From: a virus
Reading direction: 5' to 3' (one strand)
Virus record (IMG/VR): IMGVR_UViG_3300005099_000044
Coordinates: 1 to 27,074 of that record
Length of the DNA stretch: 27,074 nucleotides
Shown one piece after another: positions 2,663 through 19,952 of the stretch. Every line of letters starts with the position of its first letter. Position 1 is the stretch's first letter. The notes beneath the pieces were generated by a model. That model ran no database searches, was not told the origin of the DNA, and worked only from the letters and a program-made list of their open reading frames with translations. Both the position numbers and the translations under genes were made by a program.

Positions 2663-3253
2663 ATGATTTCAGGTAGCAAGATTGGATTCTCAAACATAGT
2701 CCTTGCCTTGCAAAAAGTAAGCGATAAATATCCTTGGGGAGATGACTTTGATTACTTATTAATGCTTAATCCTTCTCCTTCAGATTTAGATGGTGATAGT
2801 ACCTTAGATTATGAAGAGAAAACTGGAATCACAGACACAACTGAGGCTGAACAGATTGATAAGACTTTTGTCTTTGCAGATCTAGAGCATTATGATATTT
2901 TGCCTACAAAGGGTGGATATGTCAGAGCAGTAGCTCAAGCAGGTATTGCTAGGACGGGTTCAACAGATGGCAATGTTTACTTAACCAAGATTACCTTTGA
3001 TCTAGGTTATGTGGACTCTAGCGGCAACTTTACATCCAAATCCAGTGCAACTGCAACAACTAATTTCAACACAAACTCCACAAGTTATGACCTCTGTAGC
3101 GGGCAGGCATGGCTCAGTTATGATTTTGACATTCCTAGTGGCTATAAATTGGCCCTGCGGGTAAGACTCTATGGCTACATCGCTACGACAGAAAGCGGCA
3201 AAATGAAGCTGTGTTGTGGCAGAGGAAGTTATGACAGCTACTTAGAGTTTTAA
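2663..3253 (+). CDS. Hypothetical beta-rich structural protein with a calcium-loop-like motif
   Basis: This is a 196-aa protein with an AGGAGG site at 2651-2656 and an ATG at 2663. Residues around 37-50 read PSDLDGDSTLDYEEK, a DxDGDxxxDxxE pattern like the calcium loops of thrombospondin type 3 or dockerin repeats. The rest is Ser/Thr/Gly/Tyr-rich with strand-like alternation, and the C-terminus has two adjacent Cys (LCCGRG). No family is recognised. It lies between the stand-alone module gene and a coiled-coil gene, just ahead of the tailspike, so a virion or adhesion role is plausible but unproven. Confidence 0.65.
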   Translation: MISGSKIGFSNIVLALQKVSDKYPWGDDFDYLLMLNPSPSDLDGDSTLDYEEKTGITDTTEAEQIDKTFVFADLEHYDILPTKGGYVRAVAQAGIARTGSTDGNVYLTKITFDLGYVDSSGNFTSKSSATATTNFNTNSTSYDLCSGQAWLSYDFDIPSGYKLALRVRLYGYIATTESGKMKLCCGRGSYDSYLEF

Positions 3254-3256
3254 GCT

Positions 3257-3514
3257 ATGGGTACGATGACCAAAAGAATTAAAAAGAAACTAACAATCAA
3301 AGATGTTGTAGAAAGGCTGATTAAACTTGAAGAAGAGGTTGGCAAAATCAAGCATGAAGTAATGAAGATGACAGAGCAAGAATTGAATACCAGGACGGAG
3401 CAGTTGCAAGACTTACTAGCAGAGATAACAGCTCTGGTTGCCTTGTTCAAAGAAAAGGGCTTTGTTACTCAAGATGAGATAAACGAATGGCTAAGGAGAA
3501 AGAAAAATGGCTAA
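3257..3514 (+). CDS. Small coiled-coil protein
   Basis: This is an 85-aa protein, strongly helical and charged. It has heptad-like spacing from about residue 14 to 65 (IKDVVERLIKLEEEV and onward), and a C-terminus FVTQDEINEWLRRKK that looks like a short helical capping motif. The ATG at 3257 lacks a clear Shine-Dalgarno; an in-frame ATG at 3266 is an alternative. The end overlaps the tailspike start by 8 bases. Short coiled-coil proteins just ahead of fiber or spike genes may act in oligomerisation or assembly, but no specific function can be given. Confidence 0.65.
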   Translation: MGTMTKRIKKKLTIKDVVERLIKLEEEVGKIKHEVMKMTEQELNTRTEQLQDLLAEITALVALFKEKGFVTQDEINEWLRRKKNG

Positions 3515-5264
3515 CTATTATGTAGATGCAACTTTGGGCGACGATAGCAATCCAGGCACAATAACACAACCTTGGAAAACGATAAGCAAAGTGAATTCTT
3601 CTTCTTTTAGCCCAGGGGATAATATATATTTTAAACGAGGAGAAGTTTGGCGAGAGCAATTAACCGTTCCATCTTCTGGTTCAGACGGCAATCCTATTAC
3701 TTTTGGAGCTTACGGAAGCGGCAATAAGCCTGTTATCTCAGCTTTGGAGGAAGTGCCTAGTGAAGACTGGTCTGGCCCAAATGAAAATGGTGAATACACT
3801 TACTCGACTACAACTACTTGCGTGGTATTTGCGGAAGATGGGGAATTTATACCTGAAGGTGTAGCAGGCAATCTTTCTCCTGGAGAATGGGACTATGATT
3901 CGGATACTGATACTTTATATTATAAACCTAGTTCAGGGACCCCTTCAGACCATGTAACCGAAAGAGGAGAAAGAACCCGTGCTATTTTAATAAGTGGAAA
4001 AAGTTATGTTACCTTGGTAAACCTTAACCCAGTGGGCAACAATCATCCGCAGGCATATAGAAACTGTGTTGATGTTATAGGCACTGGAAGCAATATTATA
4101 GTTGATAATTGCTTGATTAAGATAGCTTACGTCTGTGGTATTCGGTTTGACTTAGATATATCAGACTCACGAATTAGCAATACAGAAGTAACCCAATGCA
4201 CTGGCAGAGGTATCTGGATACGAGGTTCAAACTCAGTAGTTAGAAACTGTCATGTGCATCATATTGGGCAAGGGAATCTTATAGATAGCCATGATAGAGA
4301 AGGAATTAGTGTCGGCGGTAGTAATAATATTGTGGAGTTATGTACTGTCCATGATTGTGGCCATCCTTCTGCTGGGGATGAAGGGTCTGGATGGGGTATT
4401 TTGCTTTACGGTGGCACAGGAAACAATACCGTGCAATATAACACTGTCTATAATATAGACCATATTGGAATAGGTATCTTTCAATCAAATGATAAGGTTT
4501 ATTACAATGTAATTTACAACTGTGGGATTAAAGCAACGGCGGATGGGGGATATTTTGGAGGAATTCGAGTAAAAGGAAACTTATCTGGCATAGAAATCTA
4601 TAATAATGTCGTATATAAGTGTGATGATAACATATCTACTGCTAACAAACATTATGGAGCTGGTATTTTGATCTTTGCTGCCGCAGATGAAACTCTCAGT
4701 TTGACTCTAAAGAACAATATTGTAGCATTTAATGAAACAAATTATGATTTAGTTGTCAGGGAAATGGCAGAAACAGCACAGATAAATCTGACTTCTGATT
4801 ATAATTGTTTTTATCGTCCCGATGGTGCAAAATTTCATTATGATGGCTCAGAAAAGACTTTTTCTGAGTACCAATCCGCCTCTGGCCAAGATAGTCACTC
4901 TATATGCCTAGACCCCGCTTTCGTTGACCCAGACAACGGAGACTTTCACCTCAAAGTCGGCTCTCCTTGCATAGACGCAGGGACAGATGTTGGCCTTGAT
5001 AGAGACTTTGATTATAATCCTGTTCCTTGGGGAGCAGGTGTTGATATTGGGGCGTTTGAGCTAACTAGAAGAATAACTGTACTGAAATTGTCCCATCGTC
5101 CAAAGGACTGCCGAAGCGGCAAATGGACTGACCTTAGCCGCTTTGGAAACCACGGAATACCTCACGGCGGGGCGAGGCCAGTAATGATTGCCCCAAGGGT
5201 ATGGGGTTTGAGTTTGATGGAGATGATAGTACTTACTTGGATTGTGGAGAAGATAAGAGCTTGA
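3507..5264 (+). CDS. Right-handed beta-helix tailspike / pectate-lyase-fold protein (0-frame product)
   Basis: This is a 585-aa product. The N-terminus ANYYVDATLGDDSNPGT followed by QPWKTISKVNS and SPGDNIYFKRGE is the characteristic opening of secreted or phage beta-helix proteins (DUF1565/pectate-lyase superfamily). Residues from about 170 to 440 show repeated N-x-V-x-x-N and G-I-x-I rungs. A closing segment, SPCIDAGTD followed by DIGAFE, is typical of the end of this fold. After that come DLSRFGNHG and GGARPV, the first strands of a LamG-like domain whose remainder lies in the -1 frame. In the 0 frame only about 18 unrelated residues follow GVW before the stop at 5262-5264. The start is supported by AAGGAG at 3493-3498. 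Likely role: polysaccharide binding or cleavage at the host surface. Confidence 0.8.
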   Translation: MANYYVDATLGDDSNPGTITQPWKTISKVNSSSFSPGDNIYFKRGEVWREQLTVPSSGSDGNPITFGAYGSGNKPVISALEEVPSEDWSGPNENGEYTYSTTTTCVVFAEDGEFIPEGVAGNLSPGEWDYDSDTDTLYYKPSSGTPSDHVTERGERTRAILISGKSYVTLVNLNPVGNNHPQAYRNCVDVIGTGSNIIVDNCLIKIAYVCGIRFDLDISDSRISNTEVTQCTGRGIWIRGSNSVVRNCHVHHIGQGNLIDSHDREGISVGGSNNIVELCTVHDCGHPSAGDEGSGWGILLYGGTGNNTVQYNTVYNIDHIGIGIFQSNDKVYYNVIYNCGIKATADGGYFGGIRVKGNLSGIEIYNNVVYKCDDNISTANKHYGAGILIFAAADETLSLTLKNNIVAFNETNYDLVVREMAETAQINLTSDYNCFYRPDGAKFHYDGSEKTFSEYQSASGQDSHSICLDPAFVDPDNGDFHLKVGSPCIDAGTDVGLDRDFDYNPVPWGAGVDIGAFELTRRITVLKLSHRPKDCRSGKWTDLSRFGNHGIPHGGARPVMIAPRVWGLSLMEMIVLTWIVEKIRA

Positions 5265-5809
5265 AAATTTCTAATCAAATTACGTTAGGAGCGTGGATAT
5301 TGGCCCAAATAGAAAATTCAGGAAAACATATAATAATTAAATATAGACCTAGCTATAATGAAGGTGACTATGATTTGAAAATTGGACAATTTGTTCTCTA
5401 TGTTGATAATTTAGGCTATCCCGATGGTTTTAAAAAACTTACCTTTACTCCGATTTATCATAAGTGGGTTTATGAAATTGCAGTATATGATGGACAATAC
5501 ATGAGAGCGTATTTAAATGGTGATGAAGTAGCGAATTTAAATATTGGTTCACACACTATTGATACTAGAAGCAGTAAACTATTTATTGGCTCAAATGCTT
5601 ATCATACTCATAAACATCCTTTTAAAGGCATCATCGCCGAGCCAGTTGTTGCGAATACAGCTTGGTCTCAAGACGAAGTCCGTGAAATCATGTATCGCTC
5701 CGATTTATATAGAACGCTCCGAGGACTGCCAAGGAGCTTCATACAAGTACCTAGGAATTTTAGGACTTGGAGAAAGACAGAAGGAGGAATTTATACAAAA
5801 GCAATATGA
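5201..5809 (+). CDS. LamG-like C-terminal domain of the tailspike in the -1 frame (frameshifted extension or sequencing break)
   Basis: This frame encodes GFEFDGDDSTYLDCGED, ITLGAWI, KWVYEIAVYDG, MRAYLNGDEV, SKLFIGSNA and FKGIIAEPVV, the ordered strands of a Laminin_G_3/concanavalin-like domain that usually binds carbohydrate. Its first strands (DLSRFGNHG, GGARPV) are in the upstream frame, so the domain is split across the shift and is not an independent gene. The join needs a -1 shift at 5204-5210 or one more base in the GGGGTTT run. The joined product would be about 767 aa. The stop at 5807-5809 overlaps the ATG of the next gene (ATGA). Confidence 0.7.
   Translation: MGFEFDGDDSTYLDCGEDKSLKISNQITLGAWILAQIENSGKHIIIKYRPSYNEGDYDLKIGQFVLYVDNLGYPDGFKKLTFTPIYHKWVYEIAVYDGQYMRAYLNGDEVANLNIGSHTIDTRSSKLFIGSNAYHTHKHPFKGIIAEPVVANTAWSQDEVREIMYRSDLYRTLRGLPRSFIQVPRNFRTWRKTEGGIYTKAI
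5204..5210 (+). promoter_or_regulatory. Candidate -1 frameshift slippery heptamer G GGT TTG
   Basis: In the tailspike 0 frame the codons are TGG GGT TTG. Bases 5204-5210 are GGGTTTG, a perfect X-XXY-YYZ heptamer in the correct phase. A -1 slip leads straight into the LamG frame. No strong downstream stem is obvious by eye. A homopolymer error in GGGGTTT would look the same, so this is a candidate only. Confidence 0.45.
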
Positions 5810-6816: not shown

Positions 6817-6948
6817 ATGGGTAAAATGAAATTTCAAAGCAGAGCAGGCGGACATTACTCTCCTGCTCCATCCAAGCCTAAAGCAAAGATTAAAGCAAAG
6901 AAAGAAGTCAAAGCAAAGAAAGAAACAAAGGAAGGAGGTGACAAATAA
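6817..6948 (+). CDS. 43-aa Lys-rich small protein upstream of the tail tube gene
   Basis: AGGAGG at 6805-6810 precedes an ATG at 6817. The 43 codons end in TAA at 6946-6948, which overlaps the ATG of the tail tube gene (TAATG). The product starts MGKMKFQSRAGGHYSP and then has three K-A-K-type repeats (KAKIKAKKE, KAKKETKE), so it is strongly basic and probably disordered. The good binding site and coupled stop/start argue that it is translated. Function is unknown; it could also serve as a leader peptide that sets tube-protein translation. Confidence 0.6.
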   Translation: MGKMKFQSRAGGHYSPAPSKPKAKIKAKKEVKAKKETKEGGDK

Positions 6949-7922
6949 TGTCCTTATTAACAAGAAGAAGTGTTGTATTGGCAAAGATTGAGAGCAATTA
7001 TGGAACGGATGCAAGCCCAGGAACAGCGGATGCTATTCTTTGTACTGCTCCTAGTGTGACTCCTTCAGGTGACTTGCTCACAAGGGATTTTGTAAGGAGC
7101 TCTATCTCACCCTATCCTCATGTTATCGGTGCTAAGACAGTAGAGGTTACATTTGATACTGAGATTAAGGGTTCAGGTACAAACTCAAGCACTTCTACAA
7201 GTGACATTATTCCTGAAATAGGAGTCTTATTCAGAGCATGTGGATTAAGTGAAAGCGTGACTTATGGCTCTACTTCAGGTACTCCCACTACTTATTCAGA
7301 TTTAACTGCTTCTTATCAGCCTATTTCTACAAACTTTGAGAGTGCTACTCTCTATGTCTATTTTGATGGTGTATTGCATAAAGTTGTAGGTTGCAGAGGT
7401 ACTGCTGTATTAACACTTGATGCGGGTGCATTTCCTAGAATTAGCTGGACATTTAGAGGACTATATCAGGATGTTGTAGATGCCAGCTTGGTGACAGGAG
7501 AATATGACGATACTCAGCCACCTATTGTTGAATCCTTGAACTTGCAACTCGATTCTTTCTCCCCTAAAGTGCAGTCAATTACTCTTGACTTGGCAAATAC
7601 TCTTACTGAGATTAGAGATGTCAATTCAAGTGAAGCTATGCGTGAAATCACGATTACAAACAGAGATGCAAATGGAAGAATCAATCCTGAGATGGAACTT
7701 GTTGCTACTTATGACTTCTTTGGGATTTGGAAAAATGCAACAAAGAAATCTCTAAGCTGTACCATTGGAAGCGCAGGTGGAAATAAGATTATAATCTCTT
7801 GTCCTACAATTCAGGAGAATAGTTTGGCTTATGCAGATAGAGACGGTATTAGGGCACTGGATATTCCTATCAAGTTAGCAAGTGAGAGTGGAGATAATGA
7901 GATAACAATTAAATTTGTATAA
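6948..7922 (+). CDS. Major tail tube protein
   Basis: This is a 324-aa protein. The opening LTRRSVVLAKIESNYGTDASPG matches the start of many siphophage tail tube proteins. The body shows the tube pattern: VEVTFDTEIKGSGT, the PEIGVLFRACG helix, ATLYVYFDGVLHKVVGCRGT, and SWTFRGLYQ. It is followed by a second similar half with PPIVESLNLQL and SITLDLANT, then YDFFGIWKN. Inference: a double-layer tube subunit that polymerises into the tail tube around the tape measure. AGGAGGTG at 6932-6939 is the strongest ribosome binding site in this part, fitting high expression. Confidence 0.9.
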   Translation: MSLLTRRSVVLAKIESNYGTDASPGTADAILCTAPSVTPSGDLLTRDFVRSSISPYPHVIGAKTVEVTFDTEIKGSGTNSSTSTSDIIPEIGVLFRACGLSESVTYGSTSGTPTTYSDLTASYQPISTNFESATLYVYFDGVLHKVVGCRGTAVLTLDAGAFPRISWTFRGLYQDVVDASLVTGEYDDTQPPIVESLNLQLDSFSPKVQSITLDLANTLTEIRDVNSSEAMREITITNRDANGRINPEMELVATYDFFGIWKNATKKSLSCTIGSAGGNKIIISCPTIQENSLAYADRDGIRALDIPIKLASESGDNEITIKFV

Positions 7923-7963: not shown

Positions 7964-8422
7964 ATGCCAAATTATGGAGGTTTCGATTTATCCTTAGATG
8001 AAGAAGTAATCGTGCTTATAGACACACAGCATGGAAAAGAATTTGAATTAAAGCATTATGTAAGAAGGCCCAAGACCTCAGAGTTTAAGGAATACAGAAA
8101 AAGAATGAGTGAGTTTAGAGGTGGGTTGAGGCGGTTTAAATGGGAAGATAGAACGACAGATGCAGCAGAATGGCTGTATAGAAAGATTATACAGAGAGTG
8201 GAAGGATATACTCTTTCTGCTTATGGGAATAAAAGTGTAATGGATGTTACGAAGGAAGAGTTAGAAGAGATAAGTCAGCGTCGTGGAGAGAAATATGAAT
8301 CTTGGATTGACCTGATTCCACCTAGACATAAGATGTTTGTAATCGATAGAGTAGCTGGCCTGGTAGTTGAAGGTGAAGCCGAAATGGAGGAGCAATTGGG
8401 GGAATCTTCAAGCGGAGCTTAA
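7964..8422 (+). CDS. Tail assembly chaperone, short form (G-like)
   Basis: This is a 152-aa protein with AGGAGGT at 7952-7958 and an ATG at 7964. It lies between the tail tube and the tape measure, where siphophages encode the G/GT tail assembly chaperones. The sequence is helical and charged: EFELKHYVRRPKTSEFKEYRKR, then KEELEEISQRRG and DLIPPRHKMFVIDRV. The C-terminal residues lie in the region where the -1 frame opens. It probably binds the tape measure during tail assembly. The call rests mainly on position and the overlapping second frame. Confidence 0.75.
   Translation: MPNYGGFDLSLDEEVIVLIDTQHGKEFELKHYVRRPKTSEFKEYRKRMSEFRGGLRRFKWEDRTTDAAEWLYRKIIQRVEGYTLSAYGNKSVMDVTKEELEEISQRRGEKYESWIDLIPPRHKMFVIDRVAGLVVEGEAEMEEQLGESSSGA
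8398..8404 (+). promoter_or_regulatory. Candidate -1 frameshift site (G5 run) in the tail chaperone gene
   Basis: The -1 frame is open from 8377 and the 0 frame ends at 8420-8422, so any shift must occur in this short overlap. The only homopolymer is GGGGG at 8398-8402 (0-frame codons GGG GAA), which allows the P-site codon GGG to re-pair on GGG one base back. It is not a perfect X-XXY-YYZ heptamer, so the exact site is uncertain. Confidence 0.55.
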
Positions 8423-11700: not shown

Positions 11701-14700
11701 GATTTAGAATCTATGTTTGAAGAACTAGGAGAAGTTGGGCATGAACATGCAGAGGAGTTAGAAAAACTTTACGATTATACAGTTACAACTTTACAGCCGT
11801 TATTTGATGCAACAATGCAATATACTCAAACTATGCTTAATTTGATGGCTGTATATGGGGAGGATATAATTGGCGCATATATAGAAGACTCAGCAGAACA
11901 AGTCAAGGCAATAGTAGATAAATACACAGCAGAAATTGCAGGCTTGGACGAGGAAGAAGCGGCTGAAAAGTTAGAAGAAATGCAAAATACCATATCTGCA
12001 TATCTCTCAGAAGTTGCTGACTTTATAGAAGAAATTGAAGGAGTGATAGAAGAATTTACAATGCCTGAAGCAGTAAGGGAAATCCATGAAATTGAGAAAT
12101 GGTATCAGGAAATGTTACAAGAAGCCGAGGCTTTGGGTCTAACAGGAGAGGCAATAGATAGATTGAACCAAGCAATGGCAGCTAAATTCTTCAAACCCAT
12201 AGAAGACATTATAGATACTCGGAGCGATTTTCAAAAGGCTGTAGATGAAATTAATGAATGGTATGTAGCAGCAACAGATTTCTTTGAGAGACATCAAGAA
12301 GTATTGGAATCTTTGGGCTACTCCATTGAGGAAATAATCCTTGCATACAGGATGCAATTGGAAGAAATATTCTTAACACCTTTAGAGGAGCTCAGAGAAG
12401 AAATACAAGGATTAGAAGCCAATATACAGGTACCACCTGAGGAGCGTGCTGCTGAGATATCTGAGATTCTGGATGAAATCATGACCTTGCTTGCCTCAGA
12501 CACAGAAACTCTTGCTTCTCAATGGGAATATCTCCTTGAGCTTTTAAATGAATACATTGACTTGCAAGAGCAAGCATACGAGGATCAAATAGAACAGTTG
12601 CGCAAAGAATATGAAGAAAGAGAGGAACTTATTAGAGAATCATACGAAGAAGAGCGAGAAAGAATTCGAGAAGAATATGAAGAAAGAATGGATGCTATAA
12701 GAGAAGAAATTGCCCAAACAGAAGAATTAATAAATGCGTGGGAGTCTATTCAAGAGCAGGTAGAAGACTTAATAGATCAAATCGAGGAAATGAGTAGAAC
12801 GCCTGTAGAATCCTTGGAATCTGCTTGGACTGAATTTCAAGATTTATTGGAGCAAATTTCAGAGGCTGCTACTGAAGAAAAGCCTGAGTTAATAGAAGAA
12901 CTCCTAGATTTAATTCCAGATTTGTTAGATCTTGTAGAAGATATTTTTGGAGAAGGGTTGATTTTAACAAAATTGCAAGAATATCTCCTTAATGTACTAG
13001 AATCTATCGGAGCTGAGGCTGAATCTGAGCTAGAGGTGCTTCAAGATATGAGAGATGATCTTGAAAGACAATTAGAATTGCTGGAAGAGCAGTTAGATAT
13101 GGAATTAAGTCAATTAGACGAATCTATGGAAGCAGAACTTGAGGCATTAAATCAAGATTTACAGAATGAGATTAACGAACTAACTCAGGCAACAATTGAT
13201 TCATTGAATGCCTTAATAGATACGGTTGAGGAAGCAGGGCAGGGCATTATAGACTCTATGACAGGTCTTGAATATGGAGGCATCCCACCAGAAGAGCTTG
13301 AGGCTTTGACAGAAAGTTTAGAATCCTTAAACGAGCCCTTGATAAATATGGATGAAAATATAGGCACATTAACTCAGACAACCGCAGATACATTGCCAGA
13401 AATGAATGAGACTCTCGTCAATGAGGTAACTCTAATCCAAGACCAAATCTTACCTTTAATGGGCGAAATGAAATCCAGTTTGGAAGCGATCAATCAAAAT
13501 TTAACAAACATTATTGGGCAACTTAATTCTTTAATTGGAACAAACACAACTGGTTTTAGCAGCATTCAAATAGCAGTTGATAGTGCCAGTGAATCAATCT
13601 GCAGTGAAATTTCAACCGCAGCATCCTCTATTGAATCTGCAATTTCAAGTGCAGCAAGCTCTATATCTTCTTCCATTTCTGCCATTCAATGTGTATGTGA
13701 GAGCCATTGTCACTGCGATTGTACTTGCAATGTTAATGTGGGAGGGGCTCAAGCAGGTGGAATTGTGACTCGGCCTACTTTACTTCTTGTGGGAGAAGCT
13801 GGGCCTGAAGCAATAATACCGTTGTCGAAATTGGGAAGTTACATGCCTGCATCCTCTCCAGTTGGAGGGAGCCCACTTACTCATCCATTTTTTGATCCGT
13901 GGAAACTATGGGATGAAATAGAAGATTTGGTTGATGCAATAGAAGAGCTTACAGAAGCCTTGGCAGATTGGATAGAAGAAGCACTCAATCCTTTGTATGA
14001 TTTTGAAAAGGAATTGGAAGAAATTATTGAAACAACTGAGATGTGGATATACTTGCTTGAGAAGCATCGAGATTATTTGGAGAAGATTGGATATAATGTC
14101 GATCTTCTGATTGATTTAATAGAACGAACAGCTTGGGAAAAGATGTTGGATCTAATTGAAGATGATGTAGAGGAAGTAAGAGACCTAGTTAATTACACAT
14201 CTGATTGGGAACAAGAAATTGCTGATATTTTAGATTGGTATAAGGAATTAACAAGGAAAACAGAAGAGATATTAGAAGCATTACTTAGACTTGAGTGGCC
14301 TTCAAGATTGGAGCAATATGGAATTACCACAATAGAAAGTTTGAAACAGGTCATTGAAGATTTGAAAAAAATAGAACCTTATTGGGAAAGATTGGGTGAG
14401 ATCATTCCTGAGATATTAGGCAAACCATTGGATCAATTCCTAAGGCAACTTTATTTAGAAAAATACAAATGGGACATTGCAGCATTAGCAATAGAGGATT
14501 TTTTCGACGCATTTATGGAGAGAATAGCGGAGGAAACAGGAAGACCTTTTGAAGAGCTTTATGATCATTGGGAGTCTTATTTAGAAGATTGGCTTGAGTT
14601 CTTAGAAGATGTGAAAGAAGGAACTATGACTTGGTTGGATTTGTTTGCCGAGATTGCAAAGGATATGACAAATATATGGTTTGAAGAAGTATGGGAATGG

Positions 14701-16503
14701 CGAGAATTTACTCCTGAAGAAGTTAGAAAGTGGTTGACTTATTTCTTTGAACAAAATTTGGGAGCTTTTCAGGATGAATTTGCAGATGTTTTGGAGGAAA
14801 CTGTTGGTCGTTGGATATATCCTTTCTTGCCCGATACTATCAAAGAAATAGTTTCTAAAATGGACCCAGAAGAAATTTGGAAATATCTGATTAAGAATTT
14901 GGATAAGACTATTCAGGCATTAGAAGATTTGCTTGATACTATTGGGCAAGCTATCGAAGAACAACTTAAATATTTGGAAAAAATCAAAGAAGCAGCTGCT
15001 ATAAAAATAGCAGATGTCTTGTACAAAACATTTATCGAGCCCTTGGAAGATTTGAGAGAACAAATTGAAGAGTTCTCATTAGGCGAAGAATATGTAGCAA
15101 AAGCATTGGAGGATGCAGAAGCTCAATGGAATAGAATAGCAGATACTTGGGAAGAAATTACTGCAACAGGCAATGAAGAAGCACTCAGAGCAATGGCGTC
15201 TAATTGGGAAAATATTTTAGAAGATGCCGAGAATTATATTGATTTATTGGAGCAGGCTTACGAACAAGAAGTTGAAAATCTTGAAAAAGAATATGAAGCA
15301 AGAATGGAAGGTTTTAATAAGGAAACAGGAGAAATTTACAGCACTTGGCAAGATATTGCAGACCTTCTTACAGAAAGAGGATATGATGTAGGAGAGCAAT
15401 GGGGTGAGGCTTGGGAAAAAGCACAACAAGTAGGTGAAGGCGTGAGCGAGGCATTTGATATATGGAGAGATTGGCAAGAAGAACAAATAGATGCTTTGGA
15501 AGAGCAAAAATCTGCATGGGAAGACGTTATGGAATCTGCAAAGCAATTGATAGATGAACTAACAACAGTCAGCGAACTTGCACCTGTTCAAAGTTGGGAA
15601 GCCATACAGAGGAGATGGGAAGAACTGCGTGAATCTATGGTCGCGGGGGATTCTAAAGCAGCCAAAGAGCTTATCTCCTTTACAGAGACTTATTTAGAAA
15701 TGGCAAGAACATTTATGCCGAGTCAATATATCGATGTATATGAAGATGTCCTTGCCACCTTGCAAGAGGCTAGAGATGTGGCAGAAGACCAAGTACAAAC
15801 CTTAGGAGATTTGGCTGATAGCATTCGTGAAACTGTAGAAGAAGCAGAAATTGCACTGGAAGATGTTATGGAACAGTTAAACGATGAGTTAGAGCAGCAA
15901 ATAGAAGATTTAAGACAGGAATACGCAGAACAGATGAATGAAGTCTACGACCTTCTTGAAGAAATGCAGGAGACAATGATAATGGAAATTGTGCCTCCAG
16001 AGTTCAGAGATGATGTTTTAGAACAATTGCAATATCAAGCAGATTATCTCTCCAGAGTTGAAGATATCTTGAATGGCAATATAACTCCAGAGAAAGAGTG
16101 GCGAATAAATGGAATGAATGACATGCTTGCACACATAGAACAATCCATTGAACTTGATAAACAAAGAAATGATTATCTTAAAAGATTATACGAAATTTTC
16201 GAAACCAACAAAGTCATTATCACTAGTTTGCAAACAGGTGGCATTATCGGTCAGGAAGGTGTATATCACCTCCATCCAGGAGAAATCGTAATACCTCGCA
16301 ATGCAAATATCAAAGTGGAGATAGATGCGGATAAATTAGGTGAGTCTATCGCCTCTTCTTTGATTCGTGCAGGTATATCTTCAAAAGAAACCTCTTCTAT
16401 ACACTTACATATAGACGGCAGAGAAATAGCAGCAGTCACAGCAGAACAAATAAGAAGAGGTCATCCAGAATTAGTGAAACAGATAAGAAGAATAACACAT
16501 TAA
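8710..16503 (+). CDS. Tape measure protein, 2597 aa
   Basis: This very large, mostly helical protein follows the tail chaperone. The N-terminal part has a typical tape measure opening (TEQAVRRTTSALKEQQSVL, then a hydrophobic FAVFAMGYVSVVGFLEAV near residue 65). A Gly/Ala-rich hydrophobic zone at about 710-775 could enter the membrane at DNA delivery. Residues 1293-1336 form a strongly charged single helix or coiled coil. A Cys/His cluster, CVCESHCHCDCTC, lies at 1661-1673, followed at 1683 by GGIVTRPT and VGEAGPEAIIPL, the motif that commonly ends tape measures. A second, similar ending starts at about 2510 (GGIIGQEGVYHLHPGEIVIP). At roughly 0.15 nm per residue the tail would be near 390 nm, if the whole chain acts as ruler. 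No peptidase or lysozyme domain was recognised. Confidence 0.9.
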   Translation: MVGYDVSITITTRWREAGKPPSPEPVQRTEQAVRRTTSALKEQQSVLSRFIQNWKSTFAVFAMGYVSVVGFLEAVRAVTGAISRSIEVSSRWESEIISLTATLTSFMKLKPGETYVEAFERALPYVRELHKAARQLDAEFIGTADDLMEVMRALIAQGITIDLQNERHIKAWLAIASAAKLLTFHIDRAGQLYQEVLAFMEGNVRMGAELAKLAAALDPEYKKHIQSLKTVEERMDYILKLLGAFTTLQDKVGNTWDAIKSTLSTIYDEILVAGFKPFFNWMKETVDSINKSLRQSKELTDTSLSIIKGLEKFWKDILSIIRSVSNVLGQHKVILQTLLATLLEVIHRLAIGLELLSSWYKVAIPKVYAGFELIGKVIGTLTAGMMEMGKAMLHFDLSKMKELKKLIKDEIIRHYKEYEERITKHPDLLTEIIKKTDEWYRENFENKRITDEISKNVEKISKIEVRLKPPDTKKIEEAIRKIDDAYDTLMLDYERYQAQMASITEDLATERLRIESELTGSLEAQYRYRVQQVEKWEAEKWNRVVSLQNSMLKKLANLRNKIEEQAAKESRELRLDEVAALVDLDIKEMEIYKDVQEQKIKIAEIAAEKEKEIFLDTYAYAINLGEILETSVADAFEGIILGTRKLEDVFIAMRDAIVGHFAQMIAKMIRQKLDFDTIWITNVKDMEGQFADSAINIRNIWDSVMDWLTSGIGKLTGAIGALGYGIAGMVGGEPWRAVGGTAATVAMLTGHPVIAVATIATAEIGKAIFKGKTEWISVGAPAAGMASTTIGLETGWWENMSTFWQLSLSFLTGWIPIFGSIFGRKWPTVRGTLEASLTFLTEASQIADEYAEEISEVSGGTKGRVRFEEATENARVIILQWRDVKGSMEDLSAAFLDFTQGVVDIYNTYFSMLPEDTRDAFIESLPQLELKFAAGRKDMEELGKKVATDLLLNTYLSWGIPLVDELSKLLGIDLFEKFGLKRTFEEIVEAAGVEPWEDLESMFEELGEVGHEHAEELEKLYDYTVTTLQPLFDATMQYTQTMLNLMAVYGEDIIGAYIEDSAEQVKAIVDKYTAEIAGLDEEEAAEKLEEMQNTISAYLSEVADFIEEIEGVIEEFTMPEAVREIHEIEKWYQEMLQEAEALGLTGEAIDRLNQAMAAKFFKPIEDIIDTRSDFQKAVDEINEWYVAATDFFERHQEVLESLGYSIEEIILAYRMQLEEIFLTPLEELREEIQGLEANIQVPPEERAAEISEILDEIMTLLASDTETLASQWEYLLELLNEYIDLQEQAYEDQIEQLRKEYEEREELIRESYEEERERIREEYEERMDAIREEIAQTEELINAWESIQEQVEDLIDQIEEMSRTPVESLESAWTEFQDLLEQISEAATEEKPELIEELLDLIPDLLDLVEDIFGEGLILTKLQEYLLNVLESIGAEAESELEVLQDMRDDLERQLELLEEQLDMELSQLDESMEAELEALNQDLQNEINELTQATIDSLNALIDTVEEAGQGIIDSMTGLEYGGIPPEELEALTESLESLNEPLINMDENIGTLTQTTADTLPEMNETLVNEVTLIQDQILPLMGEMKSSLEAINQNLTNIIGQLNSLIGTNTTGFSSIQIAVDSASESICSEISTAASSIESAISSAASSISSSISAIQCVCESHCHCDCTCNVNVGGAQAGGIVTRPTLLLVGEAGPEAIIPLSKLGSYMPASSPVGGSPLTHPFFDPWKLWDEIEDLVDAIEELTEALADWIEEALNPLYDFEKELEEIIETTEMWIYLLEKHRDYLEKIGYNVDLLIDLIERTAWEKMLDLIEDDVEEVRDLVNYTSDWEQEIADILDWYKELTRKTEEILEALLRLEWPSRLEQYGITTIESLKQVIEDLKKIEPYWERLGEIIPEILGKPLDQFLRQLYLEKYKWDIAALAIEDFFDAFMERIAEETGRPFEELYDHWESYLEDWLEFLEDVKEGTMTWLDLFAEIAKDMTNIWFEEVWEWREFTPEEVRKWLTYFFEQNLGAFQDEFADVLEETVGRWIYPFLPDTIKEIVSKMDPEEIWKYLIKNLDKTIQALEDLLDTIGQAIEEQLKYLEKIKEAAAIKIADVLYKTFIEPLEDLREQIEEFSLGEEYVAKALEDAEAQWNRIADTWEEITATGNEEALRAMASNWENILEDAENYIDLLEQAYEQEVENLEKEYEARMEGFNKETGEIYSTWQDIADLLTERGYDVGEQWGEAWEKAQQVGEGVSEAFDIWRDWQEEQIDALEEQKSAWEDVMESAKQLIDELTTVSELAPVQSWEAIQRRWEELRESMVAGDSKAAKELISFTETYLEMARTFMPSQYIDVYEDVLATLQEARDVAEDQVQTLGDLADSIRETVEEAEIALEDVMEQLNDELEQQIEDLRQEYAEQMNEVYDLLEEMQETMIMEIVPPEFRDDVLEQLQYQADYLSRVEDILNGNITPEKEWRINGMNDMLAHIEQSIELDKQRNDYLKRLYEIFETNKVIITSLQTGGIIGQEGVYHLHPGEIVIPRNANIKVEIDADKLGESIASSLIRAGISSKETSSIHLHIDGREIAAVTAEQIRRGHPELVKQIRRITH
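12379..12640 (+). repeat. Internal tape measure repeat, copy 1 (residues about 1224-1310)
   Basis: The segment starts PLEELREEIQGLE and includes LASQWEYLLELLNEYIDLQEQAYEDQ. It resembles a segment about 887 residues later. The spacing is close to that between the two GG-I-type ending motifs (827), which supports an old duplication of a large block. It is visible only at protein level. Confidence 0.5.
15040..15310 (+). repeat. Internal tape measure repeat, copy 2 (residues about 2111-2200)
   Basis: The segment starts PLEDLREQIEEF and includes MASNWENILEDAENYIDLLEQAYEQE, parallel to copy 1. Both are followed by Glu/Lys-rich helix (KEYEERE versus KEYEARM). The similarity is clear over about 85 residues and fades outside, so part of it could be convergent helix composition. 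The exact match YIDL-x-EQAYE argues for common origin. Confidence 0.5.
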
Positions 16504-19304: not shown

Positions 19305-19952
19305 ATGATACCTGATTATGATCACTTACTGCCTGTTGACCCGCAAGAGGCAATAGAAGAAACAGAAGAGCCTTGGCAAAAAATACTGGAAGGCTCTGGA
19401 TATGAAGAAAAGCGGATTGAGCTTGGAGATATAAAGTCTTATGTACAGTTAAGATGGCCTCTGTTAACACAATATGAAGGAAGGCAGTTATTTGATTTCT
19501 TTGTTGTAGTAAAGAAATATAAGACCTTTAGATGGAAAAATCCAAGAAATAGCAAGATATACACAGTAAGGTTTAATGAAGACCTTAACAGAATTACAGA
19601 TCCAAGCAAGGTATATTCAATTGACCCTGTTAGATTAAAAATCATTGGCATATCAGGTCTTGCAGTCAGTATATATGATGCTTACGATAAAGAAACAATA
19701 ATTGTAAGCTCAACAGTAGTGAGATTCACACAAAGCAAAATTGCACAGTGCAAAATAGCATTCTGCACCTTAGATCCTAATGGCGGTGCAATTAGATTTT
19801 GGATGGACGGCTCAACACCAACCTCAACAGAAGGACACTATATATCGCCAGGTCAAAATATTATGATCACGGGCAACAGCAATGTATCCAATTTTAAGGC
19901 AATTAGGGCTTCTACTTTAGATGGCAGATTACAAGTATCATACCATAAGTGA
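19305..19952 (+). CDS. Distal tail domain fused to the 90-residue paralogous module
   Basis: This is a 215-aa protein with GGAG at 19294-19297 and an ATG at 19305. Residues about 20-118 (YEEKRIELGDIKSYVQLRW, LLTQYEGRQLFDFF, FRWKNPRNSKIYTVRF, LKIIGI) match the C-terminal domain of the 17100-19295 product in order and spacing. Residues 126-215 (AYDKETIIV to VSYHK) are the second copy of the module encoded alone at 2346-2651, about 70 percent identical by hand count. So this gene is a fusion of two units that each occur elsewhere in the window. Likely a minor tail protein next to the hub. Confidence 0.7.
   Translation: MIPDYDHLLPVDPQEAIEETEEPWQKILEGSGYEEKRIELGDIKSYVQLRWPLLTQYEGRQLFDFFVVVKKYKTFRWKNPRNSKIYTVRFNEDLNRITDPSKVYSIDPVRLKIIGISGLAVSIYDAYDKETIIVSSTVVRFTQSKIAQCKIAFCTLDPNGGAIRFWMDGSTPTSTEGHYISPGQNIMITGNSNVSNFKAIRASTLDGRLQVSYHK

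Follow-up and report, generated by a model that had tools for sequence, protein, structure and literature searches.

Most tail structures resolve tape measure proteins (TMPs) only poorly, and it is an open question how their chains stay in register and how they switch from ruler to DNA channel. Where they have been resolved, TMPs are trimeric, as in RcGTA (PMC7296036) and in JBD30 (PMC11445458), and in the TMP gp46 of JBD30 a putative axial ion is held by Met1130 and Met1134 from each of the three chains (PMC11445458). In P2 gpV, the phi92 spike, the R-pyocin fibre and T4 gp37 an iron ion is held by HxH motifs contributed by three chains, six His of a trimeric beta fold surrounding the iron (PMC6116203).

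The viral DNA analysed here (hereafter the window, 27,074 nucleotides) encodes a TMP with a compact strand of alternating cysteines. Judged from its sequence, this strand probably serves as a clasp, by metal or by disulfides, between three TMP chains.

The tape measure gene and its neighbourhood

According to the profile searches the protein belongs to the ordinary tape measures. It matched several tape measure PHROGs, with phrog_4200 as the best (2.8e-30), and these matches are in part driven by coiled-coil content. The gene order expected for siphophages (tube, chaperone where present, TMP, distal tail genes) is also present at the locus: a Phage_tube_2 gene (6948-7922) is followed by a small gene (7964-8422), the TMP gene and a DUF2460-like gene, and the order of genes around the TMP is similar in RcZahn and JP1. 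The whole TMP had no match among the phage records at a cut-off of 1e-5, a scan of the TMP alignment over the genome collection returned a coiled-coil match in Dorea as its sole hit, and the family profile searches revealed no match to hub protein families. Matches to Pfam Baculo_PEP_C and to NCBIfam models were rejected as coiled-coil or antibody noise, as were all matches to solved structures obtained by sequence, none of which was real.

Table 1. Features of the tape measure locus, with positions in the window.
Feature	Position	Strand	Basis
TMP gene, 2597 aa	8710..16503	+	ORF list; PHROG tail length tape measure families; downstream of Phage_tube_2 tail tube gene
Ile/Ala/Ser helix of hendecad (11-residue) pattern, residues 1634-1660; Q1660 is its last residue, just before the first Cys	13609..13689	+	sequence, AlphaFold model, L002
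Cys strand CVCESHCHCDCTC, residues 1661-1673	13690..13728	+	sequence; comparison with L002
GGIVTRPTLLLVGEAGPEAIIPLS motif, residues 1683-1706	13756..13827	+	80 related TMPs; C-terminal in most, internal here
Second GG-I domain GGIIGQEGVYHLHPGEIVIPR, residues 2510-2530	16237..16299	+	sequence; at the true C-terminal end

Three further features of the window were recorded. At 54-1339, reading frames that overlap a methyltransferase-like gene encode a LAGLIDADG domain; the frame is broken between 54-560 and 440-1339, and the arrangement resembles an inserted intein or homing endonuclease. The cassette at 2663-5809, which comprises a lectin domain of laminin-G-like type and a beta-helix protein and had no tblastn match in the examined parts of the relative described below, is probably an exchangeable module of the receptor-binding or spike type. 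Furthermore, positions 2346-2651 and 19305-19952 share a domain (EAYDKETI...SKIxxCKIAFCTLDPxGGAIRFWxDGSTPTS...) with two conserved cysteines five residues apart, which stands as a gene of its own in the one case and makes up the C-terminal portion of a tail gene in the other.

The cysteine strand and its conservation

The original prediction had pointed to a string of cysteine and histidine residues, and its coordinates proved exact (Table 1). The TMP contains seven cysteines (1631, 1661, 1663, 1667, 1669, 1671 and 1673), six of which are located in the strand, with C C S C C C C at its odd and V E H H D T at its even positions. The probability of finding six of seven cysteines within 13 residues by random placement is about 3e-11. 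With cysteines fixed at both ends, all six fall on one parity with p=0.015, and the same test on the seven cysteines in 15 residues of the relative L002 gave p=0.005. The Cys/His strand is real and not a matter of chance. The protein had further been described as nearly free of both residues otherwise, which is true of cysteine; histidine occurs 27 times (about 1% of the residues), and hence only cysteine is unusual as a residue class. Two histidines of the strand form an HxH motif (H1666-C1667-H1668) on the face opposite to the cysteines. From this residue alternation alone we infer an extended conformation for the strand. As had been noted, the GGIV motif follows closely, G1683 being located 10 residues past the last cysteine of the strand. 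A lipobox reading of the sequence AIQC was ruled out owing to the position of the site deep within the chain and the Gln preceding the Cys.

The helix ahead of the strand carries the Ile residues of its hendecad pattern at 1634, 1641, 1645, 1652 and 1656. The AlphaFold2 model predicts one helix up to Q1660, with high confidence over most of its length, and disorder afterwards; in the monomer models the pLDDT of the Cys strand does not rise above about 50, and no strand is formed. A second structure prediction, based on two sequences, was too poor to be used.

The sole homologue found is encoded by L002 (record G001), a 72.6-kb viral contig which largely shares the gene order of the window and the TMP of which is 66-68% identical. 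Its strand, CVCESHCHCDCSCTC, consists of the same residues plus one additional C-S unit, and since the indel comprises exactly one C-x unit the parity of the cysteines is preserved. Residues 1661-1673 differ by eight synonymous and no nonsynonymous changes and residues 1655-1676 by Sd=9 and Nd=0 over 54 nonsynonymous sites, the silent differences including three of the six strand Cys codons and one His codon. The flanks are nearly unconstrained, with a pN of 0.51 (1600-1633) and 0.54 (1707-1730) and synonymous sites near saturation. All cysteines of the strand are kept in this one homologue, as is the HxH motif, so that the refutation named with the original prediction, a lack of Cys conservation in close homologues, is not borne out. 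Cys1631, outside the strand, is replaced by Gly, so cysteine is retained in the strand only. The conserved block has three parts, namely the helix (pN 0.07, pS 0.45), the Cys strand and the GGIV...GEAGPEAIIPLS motif (1683-1706), and residues 1677-1679 between the latter two vary freely. Judged by these codon differences with the one relative compared, the Cys strand is under strong purifying selection.

Most tail genes are 90-99% identical between the window and L002/L203 (tube protein 99%), and two large distal tail genes are 74-76% identical; going by these identities, it is mainly in the TMP and the tail tip that the two genomes have diversified or recombined.

Of 80 further IMG/VR loci that carry the GEAGPE motif, L002 included, no locus other than L002 had a Cys strand upstream of it, and a C-x-C-x-C pattern located 50-80 bases upstream of EAGPEA in IMG/VR was found in-frame in a tape measure in L002 only; these upstream scans covered both codons of the last Glu and their listings were complete. 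A scan for C-x-C-x2-H-C-H-C-D-C yielded L002 and one chance match outside any ORF, and a search of the phage records with the 30-residue strand sequence gave no match. The broader pattern C-x-C-x2-H-C-x-C-x-C-x-C was scanned over viral contigs; among the matches listed, of which ORFs of at least 150 codons were considered, there were, apart from L002, Cys-rich repeat-type frames and one unrelated small phage protein. The proposed survey of tape measures for such strands before GG-I motifs thus turned up no case outside the window and L002, and the strand is hence not a general TMP feature. As far as these collections show, the strand is private to the two TMPs; strands with other spacings or next to no such motif could have been missed by the patterns used. 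Moreover, the TMPs of the tube-homologous phages RcZahn, JP1 and P24 and the TMP of JBD30 contain no cysteine at all, so that cysteine is avoided in the TMP background.

A strand of similar type, CNCDPHCGCTCGCGCNC, terminates an unrelated small phage protein encoded by a 174-codon ORF on the minus strand of L198, where it directly follows a charged, helix-like stretch; this may possibly be a convergent case.

An internal GGIV domain

In 70 of 72 TMPs the sequence GEAGPEAIIPL is located 47-139 residues from the C-terminus, the exceptions being L002 (963 residues) and L018 (576 residues). In the window TMP it lies about 900 residues from the end and hence outside the C-terminal range of about 140 residues that is usual for the domain. 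As the GGIV...GEAGPEAIIPL domain is usually C-terminal, its position in the window TMP indicates a C-terminal-type domain that was made internal. The second GG-I domain has no Cys strand before it. Furthermore, residues 999-1670 align weakly to the second half of the protein (22% identity, E=6e-19, in part coiled-coil bias).

The simplest reading of these data would be that a second length was added to the tape measure after a former C-terminal domain. With this reading the literal placement of the cluster at the tip of the tail, as originally proposed, falls: the Cys strand is located about 64% along the chain and more than 900 residues from the C-terminus. An internal domain of C-terminal type further points to the fusion of shorter tape measures as a way in which long ones can arise, and the placement of the GEAGPE C-terminal domain is variable rather than defining for all TMPs.

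In L018, another viral contig (8247 and 11203), GEAGPEAIIPL is internal to the ORF and a second GEAGPE motif follows about 3 kb downstream; this is a second case of a displaced GEAGPEAIIPL domain.

For neither the Cys strand nor the internal GGIV domain of a TMP was a description found in the open-access literature, and both are regarded as variants in this sense. The papers examined that combine tape measure with "cysteine-rich" were unrelated.

Possible roles of the strand and comparison with known systems

By analogy with the tail proteins described above, it appears plausible that a TMP trimer contains a site for metal binding or cross-linking, as originally suggested. We tentatively favour a metal clasp of thiolates (or of the HxH motif) that would cap the three-helix hendecad coil of the TMP trimer. 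Three parallel TMP chains would form a hendecad three-helix bundle terminating at Q1660, beyond which the three strands, each with Cys 1661, 1663, 1667, 1669, 1671 and 1673 on one face, would bring together up to 18 thiols. Where the chains meet on the tail axis, stacked thiolate rings could bind at least one metal ion, probably Zn or Fe, and H1666-x-H1668 on the opposite face might serve as an alternative ligand set. Such a clasp would keep the three chains aligned with one another at a joint within the TMP, built from a domain that is C-terminal in the TMPs of other phages. The trimer, the extended strand, the metal and the registering role are what we infer here.

The metal clasp is supported by the absence of replacements over residues 1655-1676 between flanks with a pN of about 0.5, by an indel of one C-x unit that keeps the parity, by the retention of cysteine in the strand only, by the absence of cysteine from the TMPs of RcZahn, JP1, P24 and JBD30, by the predicted end of the helix at residue 1660, and by the precedents of the axial ion in JBD30 and of the HxH iron sites. 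It is weakened by the comparison resting on one homologue, by monomer models of low pLDDT in which no strand is formed, and by the lack of a sequence-matched solved structure. The more specific proposal that three chains with six or seven cysteines each build a stacked thiolate metal column, by which a fused tape measure would be clasped internally or its register marked, seems doubtful. If true, no tape measure protein has been described with a metal site of this kind, and the column might perhaps be released through redox or metal exchange when the host envelope is entered.

Since the Cys thiolates could equally form disulfides, the metal clasp has to be weighed against an interchain disulfide staple. 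The cysteines, which directly follow the predicted coiled coil, would in this case pair at the helix end among the three chains after the virion has left the cell and lock the bundle covalently, and the locked bundle would be reduced or expelled whole at infection. That phage tails can rest on interchain disulfides is known from the tube, sheath and baseplate of Milano (PMC10811340). However, the Milano cysteines are scattered over interfaces, six alternating cysteines exceed what a staple needs, phage assembly takes place in the reducing cytosol, and the HxH motif lies on the opposite face, so that the staple is considered rather unlikely.

The strand sits at the junction with a domain of C-terminal type that is placed internally, and the TMP part after it is weakly similar to the first part. 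Both would also suit a contact site for a tail protein or chaperone, or a joint or processing site of two fused TMP halves, with the cysteines serving for packing. This is improbable, however, taking into account that every cysteine of the strand is strictly kept while residues 1677-1679 vary freely, which suits ligands better than packing. Slightly less probable still is an Fe-S or other redox-active cluster site similar to the [4Fe-4S] cluster of the lambda and RcGTA hub but residing in the TMP: the hub proteins of siphophages and GTAs are known to carry four-Cys Fe-S clusters (PMC7296036, PMC10276861, PMC10721106), yet the hub is a different protein with dispersed cysteines (Cys173/182/205/212 in lambda gpL) and the continuous C-x-C-x3-C-x-C-x-C-x-C does not have the classical 4Fe-4S spacing. 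That the strand has no function and is a low-complexity (C-x)n repeat retained through recent common descent is highly improbable, since the nine synonymous and zero nonsynonymous differences and the lack of a DNA tandem repeat across the strand speak against it, even though only a single relative is known and slippage could give the one C-S unit by which the copies differ.

The metal-thiolate clasp hence appears to be the most likely reading and interchain disulfides the next, with a contact or processing site, an Fe-S site and the lack of function being less likely. A compact conserved Cys strand in a Cys-poor TMP is a natural handle for labelling, metal analysis and Cys substitution, and such a handle can report the location of this part of the ruler and whether unlocking is needed.

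Among known systems, the siphophage TMPs with a C-terminal GGIVTxPTLxLVGEAGPEAIIPL domain have a motif near-identical to that of the window TMP; the others have no Cys strand, and the motif is C-terminal in 70 of the 72 but internal in the window TMP. Phage Milano uses cysteines, conserved within its clade, for the locking of the tail (PMC10811340), as the window TMP might do, and differs in that its tail is contractile and that the tube, sheath and baseplate proteins are concerned, which lack a C-x-C strand. The [4Fe-4S] hubs of lambda gpL, RcGTA and R4C (PMC10721106, PMC7296036, PMC10276861) hold a metal by cysteines in a siphophage tail and near the end of the TMP, as is proposed here for the strand; there it is four dispersed conserved cysteines of another protein, whereas six of the seven cysteines considered here are placed in one 13-residue strand of the TMP itself. 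With the HxH spikes and fibres the window TMP would share ligands at positions i and i+2 on one strand face in three chains, and it contains a literal HxH motif; their sites consist of His only, whereas the putative strand fold of the window TMP is Cys-dominated and belongs to a tape measure. In JBD30 the methionines reside on one level of the C-terminal coiled coil at the baseplate, whereas the strand of the window TMP is internal and past a helix, not in the C-terminal coil. Both TMPs would nevertheless turn the sulfur ligands of a trimer toward the tail axis, as we presume for the window TMP, and in JBD30, too, a GG-type domain is found, located upstream of the site.
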